Assembly: GCA_018645475.1 (NCBI GenBank)
Contig: JABGWU010000050.1
Location: 1 to 42,479 of the forward strand
DNA: 42,479 nt
DNA from: Opitutia bacterium
GTDB taxonomy: Bacteria; Verrucomicrobiota; Verrucomicrobiia; Opitutales; Seribacteraceae
Direction of reading: 5' to 3'
In this document: piece by piece, positions 3,306-9,295 of the stretch
Layout of the letters: the number at the start of each line of letters is the position of its first letter
Numbering within the stretch: the stretch's first letter is position 1
Program-made: the position numbers and the translations under genes
Notes under the pieces: model-generated
Told to the model about the DNA's origin: nothing
The model's input: the letters and a program-made list of their open reading frames with translations, nothing else
The model's database searches: none

Positions 3306-4190
3306 ATGCGAAGCATAGCTACCTTTAAGGAAGAAAAAATTGCCCTGCGGTTTTGGAATTTCCTTCAATCTGAAGATATAGAATCTTCATTAGAAGAAGA
3401 TGAATCAAACCGAGAATGGCTTGTTTGGGTCTTGGACGAAGAAAAGATTCCCCAAGCAATGGTGTCATATAAGGAATTTAAGGTAACGCCGAATGACTCG
3501 AAATTTAATTTAACAAAAAATATTGAGCCAAAACTTAAAGAATCCAATTTGGGTAATCATAACAAAAAATCACGCTTTAAAAATTATAATTTAAGAGAAA
3601 ACTGGAATAAAAAAGATAGAAGTCCGGGAATGTTCTCCCTTTCATTAATAATTACTTCTGTTGCTGTTTTTCTTCTATCGGGCATGGGGCAAAATGCTGA
3701 AATTGTAAATAAATTTTTAATCACGGAAAAATTAAATGGTACACTTTCAGAAGTTCTAAATGGAGAAATATGGAGAATAATAACTCCTATTTTTTTACAT
3801 TTTTCATTCTTTCATATTCTATTCAATATGTTTTGGGTGCATGATCTCGGTGGCCAAATTGAAAAAAGAAAGGGGTCTCGATTCTTTTTCCTGTTTATTT
3901 TTGTAACTGCAATCATATCAAACCTTGCACAATTTAAATTTGGTGGACCTGCCTTTGGTGGCATGTCTGGTGTTGTCTATGGTCTTTTCGGATATGTGTG
4001 GATAAAGTGCAAATTTGATCCTGGTGATGGTTTATTCATCCATCAAACAACTGCAATAATCATGCTTGCTTGGTTTTTTCTATGCTTTGCAGTGAAAGAC
4101 TTCGGTATAGCAAATTGGGCTCACGCGGGTGGACTTATTACAGGAACAGCGTGGGGTTATATTTCTGCGGTTAGATGGAACCGTAAATAA
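3306..4190 (+). CDS. Rhomboid family intramembrane serine protease (GlpG-like)
   Basis: The 294-residue protein has a soluble N-terminal domain (about 1-70) that resembles the cytosolic rhomboid N domain of GlpG. A charged linker follows, then six hydrophobic segments from about residue 108. The catalytic dyad is visible: Ser221 in GGMSGVVYGLFGY and His273 in WAHAGG. The HFSFFHILFNMFW segment matches the conserved oxyanion/His-Asn helix of rhomboids. It cleaves single-pass membrane proteins within the bilayer. It lies 20 bases downstream of the M50 protease gene and is convergent with the metX-metW fusion gene, whose stop is 13 bases away. The ATG lacks a Shine-Dalgarno motif. Confidence 0.92.
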   Translation: MRSIATFKEEKIALRFWNFLQSEDIESSLEEDESNREWLVWVLDEEKIPQAMVSYKEFKVTPNDSKFNLTKNIEPKLKESNLGNHNKKSRFKNYNLRENWNKKDRSPGMFSLSLIITSVAVFLLSGMGQNAEIVNKFLITEKLNGTLSEVLNGEIWRIITPIFLHFSFFHILFNMFWVHDLGGQIEKRKGSRFFFLFIFVTAIISNLAQFKFGGPAFGGMSGVVYGLFGYVWIKCKFDPGDGLFIHQTTAIIMLAWFFLCFAVKDFGIANWAHAGGLITGTAWGYISAVRWNRK

Positions 4191-4203: not shown

Positions 4204-6015
4204 CTAAACTCTTACTAATTCATAAATTGCCAACCCGGCTCTTAGGTTGGGAATCCATCGACATTCTGTCCTCCAATTTCCGTGATGAAATACTTTTCTT
4301 CCTAATCGAAAGGGTTTCTTAAGTTCAACTGAAGGGTTACAAAAAGACTCAAACTCTTTGATTGAAAAATGGTTTAGCGGATGACTCTTCTCCCATTTCT
4401 CACTATAAACATCGTTCGTAATTCTTGAGCCATACCTGGAAAAATGTAAACGGTTTCGCCAATACCCATGATTCACAAAACTAACTGCAACTCGCTTACC
4501 TACTCTAAGTGCGTCTAAAATTACCTGCCCCGGTTCAGGTAACTCTTCCACCATTCTTGAAAACACCACCCAATCAAATGAATTATCTGAAAGCATTGAT
4601 AAAGCATTACGAATATCACCCTGATAAACATTAACTCCTCTAGAAATGCACGCGGCGGCCTTGGTAGAATCATAATCAACTCCCAATCCTTTTACATTTT
4701 TAGTCTCACGAAGGTGCTCTAAAAGGATTCCTCGTCCACATCCTAGATCCAATACCTTTTCATCCTTTTTTACCCAACCACTAATTACTTTAAGATCGGC
4801 TTCCTTTTTTACATTAGAACGATTATTGCTATGCCTTGATTTTTGTGATTCTTGATGAACAGGTTTTACTAAATTTTCGCCTTTTAAAAATAATTTTATT
4901 AAGCGTAAAAAATCATGCGAATTAAGCAAAAACGAATCATGCCCATGGTCGTGATCAATTTCTAAATAGGATGCATTTTTCCCCAATCGTTGAAGAGATT
5001 CAGCAATCATTTTATTTTGAGAAGGTGTGTAAAGCCAATCAGATGTAAAGCCCACAACCATAACTTTTGCACTAACATTCTTTAAGTTTTCATCTAAACC
5101 ATTATCTCCAACGAGATCAAAACGGTCTAGTGCCTTAGTTAGCTTTAAATAGGTATTAGCATCAAAACGATCAACAAATTTAAATCCTTGGTAATGTAAA
5201 TAACTTTCAACAGTAAACTGGTTATTCTCCGATTTTTGATCTTGTTCATCACCAGCAATCATTAAATCGCGACCAAATTTTTCGGCCATTGCTTTGTCAG
5301 AAAGGTAAGTAATATGGGCCATCATTCTAGCAACTGCTAATCCTGCTTCTGGCCTAGTTTCTGAAGTATACTCTCCATTGTTCCAATGCGGATCACGCTT
5401 AATTGAAGTTCGACCAACTTCATTAAAGGCAATTGTTTGGGCACTATGTTGGGCTGTTGCCGCTATAATCATCGCACTTTTTACGAAACTGGGGAATTCA
5501 ACAACCCATTGAAGTGCTTGCATCCCACCCATACTACCGCCTACAACCGAATAAAGAGACTTTATCATTAAGTGATCTAATAATAGCTTTTGTGCACTCA
5601 CCATATCTTTAATTGTAAGATCTGGAAAGGTCATACCGTAAGGTTTTTGAGTCAAAGGGTTTATCGAAGTTGGGCCAGTCGAACCTTGGCACGCACCAAG
5701 GACATTTGAACAAATTACAAAATATTCACTGGTATCAATTGCTTTCCCGGGACCAACTGCATGATCCCACCAACCCTTTCTTTCATCTTCGTCAGAAATT
5801 CCCGCCACATGATGATCTCCAGTTAGTGCGTGGCAGACAAGTATTGCATTGGAACGGTCCTTATTAAGCCTACCATAGGTTTCATACTTTATTTGTAAGC
5901 TACTCAGTTCACCATAAGACATTACAAATGATTTTTTGTATTCAAAAATTTGAGGTGAAACTTTGCCGATTTCACCTTCCTTGCTTTCCTTGGCTATCTT
6001 TTTAGAAGAATTCAT
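4204..6015 (-). CDS. metX: Homoserine O-acetyltransferase MetX fused to a MetW-like methyltransferase domain
   Basis: One 603-residue chain carries two proteins that are usually separate. Residues about 20-380 are a MetX alpha/beta-hydrolase: nucleophile Ser161 in GGSMGGMQALQW, Asp326 in TSDWLYTP and His359 in DHGHDSF complete the triad. It would acetylate (or succinylate) homoserine in methionine synthesis. After a polar linker (about 380-405) comes a MetW domain, a SAM-binding fold with VLDLGCGRG at about 421-429 and conserved RMVEELPEPGQV. MetW is a known partner that supports MetX activity in several bacteria. I chose the ATG at 6015; an in-frame TTG at 6030 would add five residues. The gene lies 45 bases after yebC on the same strand. 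Confidence 0.92.
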   Translation of the reverse strand: MNSSKKIAKESKEGEIGKVSPQIFEYKKSFVMSYGELSSLQIKYETYGRLNKDRSNAILVCHALTGDHHVAGISDEDERKGWWDHAVGPGKAIDTSEYFVICSNVLGACQGSTGPTSINPLTQKPYGMTFPDLTIKDMVSAQKLLLDHLMIKSLYSVVGGSMGGMQALQWVVEFPSFVKSAMIIAATAQHSAQTIAFNEVGRTSIKRDPHWNNGEYTSETRPEAGLAVARMMAHITYLSDKAMAEKFGRDLMIAGDEQDQKSENNQFTVESYLHYQGFKFVDRFDANTYLKLTKALDRFDLVGDNGLDENLKNVSAKVMVVGFTSDWLYTPSQNKMIAESLQRLGKNASYLEIDHDHGHDSFLLNSHDFLRLIKLFLKGENLVKPVHQESQKSRHSNNRSNVKKEADLKVISGWVKKDEKVLDLGCGRGILLEHLRETKNVKGLGVDYDSTKAAACISRGVNVYQGDIRNALSMLSDNSFDWVVFSRMVEELPEPGQVILDALRVGKRVAVSFVNHGYWRNRLHFSRYGSRITNDVYSEKWEKSHPLNHFSIKEFESFCNPSVELKKPFRLGRKVFHHGNWRTECRWIPNLRAGLAIYELVRV

Positions 6016-6059
6016 AATAAAAGTAAGCAAATTCTTACCTGCCTCCCTTTAGAATACTA

Positions 6060-6849: not shown

Positions 6850-8913
6850 TCACTTCTTTGAAATATCCAAGAGAAATTGATGGGCTTGCTCTAATCTTTG
6901 CTTCTTATCTAAAGCTTGTCGCCTTTTACCGGAATTCATTTCACTCAGCCTAAAATCACTGTAATTCTCGGATCTCTCTTTGTAATTCTTTTCCAAAACC
7001 TTCAAATCAATAAGTCCCTTGCTTTTCAGTCCGAGTAAATTTCTGTAACTTTTCTCTTTATCGGAGACTTCATTTAGAACTTTGGGAACTTCTTCAGTTT
7101 CATGTTCCGTCTCGCGTTCTTTCTTAAAACTATCTTTAGGGTCGGGTGCTTTTTTAGTGATAAGAGTTTGAAGAATAGTCATTAAGTTTTGAACAGTCCA
7201 ATAGAGAACCAACGCTGACGAAAAGAAATAAAGAAAGATTAAAAACATAAAAGGCATAAAGCGCATCATCTTTGCGTTTATCCTTTGAGCGTCACTCAAT
7301 TCCGGTCCCATTTGCATTGGATTCAACTTCATTTGAAACCACTGGGTTATAACCATCAGAATAGGTAGCACATTCAATGAAAAACCTTGTACCTGTGATA
7401 CATGATCTTGTTCCGAAAGGTCAGTAGCCCACAAAAAACTTTGACCATACAGTTCTGCCGCTGAACGAAGCATCCAAAACATTCCAAGAAAAATCGGGAT
7501 CTGTATGAGAATAGGCCAACACCCTGCAAAAGGATTAACCTTATGTTCTTTATAAAACTTCATCATTTCCTGATTAAGTTTTTGTGAATTGCCCTTATGC
7601 TTTTCCCGTAATTTGGACATCGGCCCCTGTAAAGATTGCATCTTTTTCTGTGACTGAGTGGCTTTTGCCGTGAGTGGCCAAAGAACGAGTTTAACTAAAA
7701 TAGTAAGCAAAATTATGGCTAAACCGTAATTTCCAAGTAAACCGTGGAGTTTGTTTAAAAGCCAGCTAAACGGTTCGGAAACCCACCAAAACACACCAAA
7801 CTGCATAACTTTCTTCTGCTCATGCCCGAGTAACGCAAGTCCAGCATAATCTTTCGGCCCTGCATATATTTCAAAAGAAAATTCTTTTGAACTCTGTGGA
7901 GAAAGATAGGCAATCGGAAAAGAAATCGTGCCACTGACTCCCTCAATCGCATCCTGGTCAGTTTCGAGCATTTGGATGGAGCGTCCATCTATCCAAGAAT
8001 TTGCAAATTCGTCCAGAGGGCGAACAATGTTGACGAAAAATTGATTGTTAACACAGGCCCACTTTGCTAAAGACAATTTTTTTGTCTCCATCTCGCCATT
8101 TGCCCCCATTTCGTTAAGTTGAAAAAACTCTTCCTGCTCCCCATCTATTCTTCCGCTACATTCCGCACAGGAACATCCTTCAGCTAAAGGTAAACCTTCA
8201 TTATAATACCCGACATTTAAATATGTGGCAGCATTATCAAAAGGATTATAAAGGCGAGGCATTCTAAAAGCAGAACCTAAATTCAGTTTTATTCGACCCA
8301 GGGGTAAAGGATTAGAACTTAGATTTGTCAGTATTGTTTTATGGCTAAAAACATAAGTGCTGTCATCCTCACGAGTATAAATCCTCTCAATCCTAATTTT
8401 ATTCGGTAGCTCCCATTGATAAACAATAGATCGGTTTCCGGATTCAATTCGCTTATATTGCCTAGGGACTGAAAGATCACCAATTAATCTTTTACCTGAT
8501 TCGTCCTCAAAAGAAAGCGAGAGTAAAGACTCTCCTAGATGAGACATGTTGTAGTCGCGACTTAACCTAGAAAATTGTTTTAGACTGACTTCGCGAATAC
8601 CTCCGTCTTGATTAGTAAAAACGAGTGATGAGAAATTATTAGACAATCCTTCAAACAATTCCTCTTCTTGAATGGAATCAACTAAAGTGGGTCGGGTAGT
8701 TGGTTGGCTTCGATTAATATCTTCAACATCATTTCTATCCGAAGATATAGGTTCAATAGATCTTACTGTCCTATTCAAATCATTGATTGGCTCAGTCTGA
8801 TCTGTCTCGTTTAAACGATCTTGTTCCAAGAACTCTTGTTGCTGTTTTCCTTGTTCCCATAACATATAAAATGCAAGAACGAGCATACCGATACCAATTA
8901 AGATATTTTTCAT
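6850..8913 (-). CDS. yidC: Membrane protein insertase YidC with Cys cluster and J-domain-like tail
   Basis: The 687-residue Gram-negative-type YidC has an N-terminal membrane anchor (residues 2-18) and a large periplasmic domain (about 90-350). The conserved insertase core spans about 372-585, with five membrane segments, GNYGLAIILLTILVKLVLWPLT and NPFAGCWPILIQIPIFLGMFW. It inserts and folds inner-membrane proteins, alone or with SecYEG. Two additions are unusual. A CSCAEC cluster (Cys247, 249, 252) lies in the periplasmic domain. The roughly 100-residue cytosolic tail ends in a segment (about 623-683) shaped like a J-domain but with YSD where HPD would be. Its start overlaps the rnpA stop by 4 bases (ATGA), implying translational coupling. 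Confidence 0.95.
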   Translation of the reverse strand: MKNILIGIGMLVLAFYMLWEQGKQQQEFLEQDRLNETDQTEPINDLNRTVRSIEPISSDRNDVEDINRSQPTTRPTLVDSIQEEELFEGLSNNFSSLVFTNQDGGIREVSLKQFSRLSRDYNMSHLGESLLSLSFEDESGKRLIGDLSVPRQYKRIESGNRSIVYQWELPNKIRIERIYTREDDSTYVFSHKTILTNLSSNPLPLGRIKLNLGSAFRMPRLYNPFDNAATYLNVGYYNEGLPLAEGCSCAECSGRIDGEQEEFFQLNEMGANGEMETKKLSLAKWACVNNQFFVNIVRPLDEFANSWIDGRSIQMLETDQDAIEGVSGTISFPIAYLSPQSSKEFSFEIYAGPKDYAGLALLGHEQKKVMQFGVFWWVSEPFSWLLNKLHGLLGNYGLAIILLTILVKLVLWPLTAKATQSQKKMQSLQGPMSKLREKHKGNSQKLNQEMMKFYKEHKVNPFAGCWPILIQIPIFLGMFWMLRSAAELYGQSFLWATDLSEQDHVSQVQGFSLNVLPILMVITQWFQMKLNPMQMGPELSDAQRINAKMMRFMPFMFLIFLYFFSSALVLYWTVQNLMTILQTLITKKAPDPKDSFKKERETEHETEEVPKVLNEVSDKEKSYRNLLGLKSKGLIDLKVLEKNYKERSENYSDFRLSEMNSGKRRQALDKKQRLEQAHQFLLDISKK

Positions 8914-9239
8914 TGATTAAGGATTGTTTTTTTGATCGCGGCTAAAATTCTTTTCTCAACTTCAACAAATGAAAGAGTGAAAAGTAAAGGTCTTGGTAAC
9001 AGAACAATTTTTGAGCCTTTCGGAAAGTGGTCTATATTTTTACGAAAAATTTCTCGGAATCTTCTTTTTGCACGATTTCTTTGGATTGCACCACCGAATC
9101 TCCGAGATGCAATGATACCAAGTTTTGGAAAATTACTGACATCCGAACTTAAGGATATCTGGAACCAAAATGCTTGATCTCTAAATCTCTTGCCTTTCTT
9201 TTTAACAGAATGAAACTCCCATGATTTTCGCAATCTCAT
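8910..9239 (-). CDS. rnpA: Ribonuclease P protein component
   Basis: From the ATG at 9239 the product is 109 residues beginning MRLRKSWEFHSVKKKGKRF, which matches the usual RnpA start. The in-frame TTG at 9272 adds 11 residues unlike the family and is rejected. The RNR signature is clear: RFGGAIQRNRAKRRFREIFR. RnpA binds the RNase P RNA and helps process the 5' ends of tRNAs. The gene follows rpmH and overlaps yidC by 4 bases; yidD, often found between them, is absent. Confidence 0.93.
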   Translation of the reverse strand: MRLRKSWEFHSVKKKGKRFRDQAFWFQISLSSDVSNFPKLGIIASRRFGGAIQRNRAKRRFREIFRKNIDHFPKGSKIVLLPRPLLFTLSFVEVEKRILAAIKKTILNQ

Positions 9240-9295
9240 TGATTGCGAATAGCATTGGCTCAACTGTTTCAAAGAAACTGAAAGTAAAATATGAA

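Follow-up and report, generated by a model that had tools for sequence, protein, structure and literature searches.

How membrane proteins are handed over from cytosolic chaperones to the insertase YidC is, to our knowledge, poorly defined. The nearest working analogy to the locus described here is Pam16 (Tim16, or Magmas), a J-like protein without the HPD motif that helps to bind Pam18 to TIM23, according to the passages on it in PMC12953747. The motif itself is essential for the stimulation of Hsp70 by J-domains in the systems tested, as stated in the relevant part of a review (PMC8215388). Sec63 of the ER translocon also carries a J-domain on translocation machinery, and its J-domain recruits Hsp70 (from a passage of PMC13261788). 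Finally, long cytosolic C-terminal regions are found on the YidC proteins of Rhodopirellula baltica and Oceanicaulis alexandrii (cited in PMC8595059); the citing passage does not describe a J-domain in them, and it is by this description that they are set apart from the protein considered here.

The window, by which is meant the whole 42,479-nucleotide stretch of Opitutia bacterium DNA that was analysed, encodes a YidC that, like Pam16, brings an HPD-less J-like domain to a membrane insertase or translocase, and as with Pam16 (in the passages of PMC12953747 that deal with it) an HPD-bearing membrane J-protein occurs in the same organism group. However, Pam16 is a separate subunit whose partner, Pam18, has been shown, whereas the domain here is fused to YidC and its partner is only putative. 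Unlike Pam16, moreover, it descends from an HPD-bearing YidC tail within one family of Opitutales, and the HPD-bearing sister tails point to an origin separate from that of Pam16. The contrast with Sec63 is of another kind: the J-domain of Sec63 is active and lumenal, while the YidC tail is cytosolic by the usual topology of YidC and has lost the HPD motif. No fusion of YidC with a J-domain is described in the titles and abstract openings listed for papers on YidC, Oxa1 or insertases together with J-domains, a body of text mostly without subscription papers, so that the absence of such a report is unproven. The parts of a YidC with a J-like tail are known; their combination is a new domain architecture.

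The protein matches Pfam 60KD_IMP at an E-value of 2.1e-59 (200.6 bits against a cut-off of 35), which identifies it as an insertase, and part of its periplasmic domain is matched by YidC_periplas (E 1.9e-10). The features of the gene are listed in Table 1. It is preceded by rnpA (8910-9272, Pfam Ribonuclease_P) and followed by yebC and then by a metX-metW fusion. The rnpA and yidC genes overlap by four bases (ATGA, 8910-8913 on the minus strand), with no yidD between them; ATGA is also found at the yidC start in 32 of 34 related loci, and in the remaining two the match starts elsewhere than at the start codon. The fusion is a single frame (4204-6030, minus strand) made up of an alpha/beta hydrolase with a metX-type motif and MetW (Pfam Abhydrolase_1 and MetW). 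By motif search, this joined frame lies near yidC in 33 of the 34 related loci, the stretch fetched for L016 stopping short of the place. A rhomboid protease with a Rhomboid_N cytoplasmic domain (Pfam) is encoded at 3306-4190 on the plus strand.

Table 1. Features of the window yidC gene, with positions in the window and residues of the encoded protein
Feature	Position	Strand	Residues	Basis
yidC	8913 -> 6850	minus	687 aa	Pfam 60KD_IMP and YidC_periplas
Insertase core (60KD_IMP match)	7150..7728	minus	396-588	Pfam
Linker, disordered and variable	7072..7158	minus	586-614	pLDDT < 50; 15% mean pairwise identity (aa 589-614)
J-like domain	6853..7068	minus	616-687	pLDDT 94.7; Pfam DnaJ on HPD-bearing orthologous tails; hhalign with controls
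Helix I	7036..7062	minus	618-626	Predicted structure
Helix II	6961..7005	minus	637-651	Predicted structure
Lost-HPD site	6952..6960	minus	S652-D653-F654	Family alignment and column counts
Helix III (and beyond)	6856..6933	minus	661-686	Predicted structure

What kind of domain is the tail? The answer depends on its relatives. A scan of genome contigs with the body of the window YidC gave 68 loci, among which L005-L039 belong to the lineage of the window. The same tail runs through to the stop codon in 34 of them (L005-L035 and L037-L039), L036 being cut, and five of these 34 tails (L028-L031 and L034) have HPD at the position of the window's S-D-F. The family tail alignment, by which the HPD site is placed and which has no internal gaps, holds 33 of 35 tails (L027 and L032 were omitted for ambiguous letters, while L034 was retained with an X), and its 28 HPD-less rows made up the HPD-less alignment and profile used below. 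The window tail has no Pfam DnaJ match, either within the protein or alone, and the DnaJ model missed it at E <= 1 across the whole window genome. Three HPD-bearing tails searched alone, on the other hand, exceed the DnaJ cut-off of 27.8 bits (28.4 bits for L030, 33.3 for L029 and 37.0 for L034). (The full-length L030 protein, at 23.6 bits, falls below the cut-off that its tail alone exceeds.) Among six HPD-less tails, the sole DnaJ match was a weak one in L023 (12.9 bits, E 0.13). Sub-threshold matches to Pfam HemN_C were seen in L033 (17.8 bits) and in the HPD-bearing L034.

Profile comparisons lead in the same direction. Against 177,635 PDB sequences, the HPD-less profile gave six matches, with HscB J-proteins in first and second place (E 0.0015 and 0.0027); the others were two DevR chains (E 0.26 and 0.42), human DNAJA1 and Hsp40 (1.0 and 1.1). 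Aligned by hhalign with ten J-domains of other genes, it scored 55.5 (probability 97.2); the reversed profile reached 12.1, and 200 column shuffles averaged 10.2 (sd 2.2) and did not exceed 18.1. Since the orthologous tails that have HPD pass the Pfam DnaJ cut-off, sequence comparison makes the tail of the window YidC almost certainly a J-domain by descent.

The predicted fold is that of a J-domain as well, so that the window tail combines J-domain fold and ancestry. AlphaFold2, run on the HPD-less tail alignment, gave a confident model (pLDDT 94.7, pTM 0.80) with helices at tail residues 3-11, 22-36, 38-42 and 46-71. A J-domain is present in every one of the first 13 Foldseek matches in the PDB, which comprise J-domain proteins, J-domain-containing viral T antigens and a J-domain chimera. 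HscB of E. coli heads them with a probability of 1.00 and a query TM of 0.74, although the E-values are weak (best 0.31). VIA-align Z-scores, which for helical folds are not decisive below about 13, were 9.1 and 8.7 for HscB and 8.0 for a Plasmodium Hsp40 J-domain, with unrelated helical proteins starting at 7.1. A Pam16/Pam18 (Tim16/Tim14) structure is absent from the fold matches shown, from which no conclusion is drawn. HscB (Hsc20) is the closest solved protein in both fold and sequence. It is a soluble protein with a C-terminal domain of its own that serves iron-sulphur assembly; the YidC tail differs from it in having no HscB-type C-terminal domain. In a model of the full-length protein from the HPD-less rows, the tail is well folded (block means of 82-91 from residue 621) and residues 586-614 are disordered. 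The membrane core is poorly modelled there (mean pLDDT 64.6), and for this reason no claim is made as to where the tail sits with respect to the core.

A previous sequence-only reading of the window had described the end of YidC, by eye, as a J-domain-like tail without HPD, and the call was right: the predicted fold, the J-proteins among the PDB matches and the HPD-bearing orthologous tails above the DnaJ cut-off all bear it out. The tail sequence that it quoted is present at Y623-D683 of the protein. It had proposed that a disordered prediction would count against the idea and a match to J-domains in favour; the predicted tail is ordered, with the helix order of a J-domain and long helices II and III, and its best PDB matches, by structure and by sequence, are J-proteins. 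The motif is indeed absent where the reading had placed YSD, but that placement was off by one, since the HPD of the relatives overlies S652-D653-F654 and the Y is the residue before it. In the window, the S-D-F tripeptide therefore stands in place of the HPD of an active class C J-domain protein. Where the relatives have the histidine, the 28 HPD-less rows have S (17), T (8) or E (3), and at the proline position D (9), E (8), S (7), P (3) or A (1). Docking of ribosome, SRP or chaperones, the role that the earlier reading had offered for the tail, stands as a hypothesis.

The tail appears to be the property of a single family. A profile search found it on a YidC-sized frame in 35 of 42 genomes of the Opitutales family, divided among all four of its genera (22 in g1, the genus of the window, eight in g2, four in g3 and one in g4), and the HPD motif sorts by genus, being absent from 22/22 in g1 and 8/8 in g2 and present in 4/4 in g3 and 1/1 in g4. 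The seven remaining family genomes are cases of missing data: six have no YidC body at E 1e-5, and in G033 the body is cut (query residues 1-479 of 566). Outside the family, no YidC-sized frame with the tail was found in a sample of 372 genomes from the order, which takes in all 42 of the family (E 1e-4), or in one of 387 from the phylum (E 1e-6), the outside matches being frames of 146-375 residues in eight genomes at the level of the order and seven of 138-275 residues at the level of the phylum. Both sets are samples from larger groups, and some genomes were scored on 15 first-look candidates only, so that a tail that has diverged far may have escaped the search. The conservation that the earlier reading had asked to see checked in verrucomicrobial YidC therefore holds within one Opitutales family and not, judging by the genomes sampled, for verrucomicrobial YidC in general.

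The loss of HPD can be followed in two trees. In a tree of the YidC body (39 rows), the 29 HPD-less rows lie on one side of a single branch (60 bootstrap, 100 SH-aLRT), a split present in 62% of 200 bootstrap trees, and the HPD rows are grade-like, needing two changes; this tree has distant outgroups, includes L034 on a long branch that was flagged by the program, and leaves out L026, L036 and L045. In a tree of the tail, which comprises 74 columns only, those of the HPD included, the HPD-less set is separate at 100/100 on a branch of length 1.67. One J-domain fusion followed by one loss of HPD is the simplest history, and is favoured rather than proven.

Why would an insertase acquire a J-domain, only for the active motif to be lost? 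We propose that, in the ancestor of the Opitutales family, YidC gained a J-domain by fusion at its cytosolic C-terminus. In the form with HPD it would bring DnaK to the insertase, so that newly made membrane proteins could be held or released by the Hsp70 at their site of insertion; such an ancestral role in DnaK recruitment is probable. The title of a paper cited in PMC8215388 names DnaK and YidC together as requirements of two tail-anchored proteins of E. coli. According to PMC6794478, a single model tail-anchored construct had a strict need for DnaJ/K, which in the other cases served to limit aggregation, and the model proteins were inserted independently of YidC. In the lineage of the window HPD would then have been lost, most simply once, and the HPD-less domain should no longer stimulate DnaK by the known mechanism. 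It may instead have been retained as a Pam16-like adaptor, most likely one that docks a chaperone-side partner at the insertase. Pam16 being the nearest working analogy, an adaptor is favoured for the window tail; that its present role is to bind a J-protein or another chaperone part is nonetheless tentative, at somewhat less than an even chance. For the explanation as a whole, with a fused J-domain, recruitment of DnaK by the HPD form and a J-like adaptor in the window, we infer function from sequence and structure and consider the chances about even.

A candidate partner for the HPD-less tail is an HPD-bearing membrane J-protein encoded beside htpG. This free-standing J-protein has HPD in all 25 loci fetched, mostly with 203-290 residues (one is cut by a contig end), and two examples pass Pfam DnaJ. 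It has hydrophobic N-terminal segments that by eye form two spans, while by a simple hydropathy threshold the number of spans varied from none to two. In 23/23 loci of g1-g3 (L115-L117 and L120-L139) it is followed on the same strand by htpG, an arrangement suggestive of a membrane Hsp40-Hsp90 pair in the family; two loci of g4 have no htpG within the fetched stretch. The J-protein was not found in the window's own genome, which is incomplete. There, the htpG match starts inside the gene at the first bases of a contig, and the site of the J-protein is therefore taken to be cut. Three other J-domain genes of the window genome (L001-L003) exceed the Pfam cut-off. Hsp70 was sought in 12 genomes: ten have one full-length DnaK-type frame, that of the window genome is cut, and none was found in G010. 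In g4, a small J-protein of 117-119 residues (L110, L111 and L112) has HPD and one hydrophobic N-terminal segment, a layout like that of Pam18; it occurs twice, in identical form, in G040, a genome with 7% contamination. The membrane J-protein does not track the loss of HPD. A simple swap, in which HPD was lost from YidC when this J-protein replaced it, is not supported, because the J-protein is also present in the genera whose YidC retains HPD. The most elaborate form of the adaptor reading would be a bacterial counterpart of Pam16/Pam18 at YidC, in which an ancestral active J-domain became an HPD-less regulatory subunit that docks the membrane J-protein beside HtpG and so couples an Hsp70/Hsp90 pathway to insertion. 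This is possible, but in such detail rather doubtful.

The main rival is that the tail now serves as a docking module for the ribosome or SRP, as a substitute for the basic tails found on other YidC proteins, and that its J-domain ancestry is incidental to its function. It takes this position on account of work cited in a passage of PMC8595059, by which the long YidC tails of two other marine bacteria, R. baltica and O. alexandrii, interact with ribosomal proteins of E. coli. The window tail has a net charge of +7 and the HPD-less rows a mean of about +6, and the other Opitutia YidC proteins in the scan (L040-L044) end in short basic tails. However, the J fold has been kept, the basic charge is not concentrated as it is in those tails, and the HPD-bearing sister tails imply an origin linked to Hsp70. 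Docking of this kind thus seems unlikely, if still worth weighing.

Less likely again is that the HPD-less domain acts as a tether or holdase, still binding DnaK or client proteins but no longer stimulating the hydrolysis of ATP. The aromatic residue of helix II is retained at column 29 (Y or F in 28/28 HPD-less rows), and column 30 is K in 18/28. On the other hand, the domain is acidic where J-domains are basic, with E at column 31 in 21/28 and E or D at column 26 in 25/28 rows; in J-domains, these positions contact Hsp70.

Could the domain be a relic, slowly decaying since HPD was lost? Purifying selection acts on both forms of the tail. Over 30 HPD-less rows, mean pairwise identity is 53% in the tail, 52% in the N-terminal and periplasmic part, 88% in the core and 15% in the linker, and the tail has no gaps. 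For HPD-less pairs, dN/dS in the tail is 0.04-0.17 in eight of ten pairs (undefined in the other two), close to the 0.07-0.13 of the periplasmic part over the ten, while four HPD pairs gave 0-0.06 in the tail against 0.20-0.25 in the periplasmic part. Single ratios are rough, since several pairs come close to saturation in dS and two of the ten have no defined tail dS; nor is every pair independent of the others. Compared with the periplasmic domain, then, constraint on the tail is weaker in HPD-less than in HPD lineages, which partial decay would also give, yet it is still strong. Moreover, column 10 is N and column 44 is M in 28/28 HPD-less rows and in 0/5 HPD rows; such invariant residues fit a changed function better than none. 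Because it is under purifying selection and has invariant residues of its own, the HPD-less tail is not simply decaying, and the relic is very improbable. A chance resemblance of an ordinary helical hairpin, for which the missing Pfam match of the window tail, the modest structural scores taken alone and the weak HemN_C matches of L033 and L034 might be cited, is ruled out by the far lower shuffled and reversed profile controls and by orthologous HPD tails above the DnaJ cut-off at the same place.

In one marine bacterial family, then, the branch that includes the window has retained a J-domain on its YidC under selection while losing the active motif. A domain that recruits Hsp70, fused to an insertase, points to a direct hand-off between DnaK and YidC, and the genera with and without HPD provide a natural comparison for the role of a J-domain that is unable to act on Hsp70.
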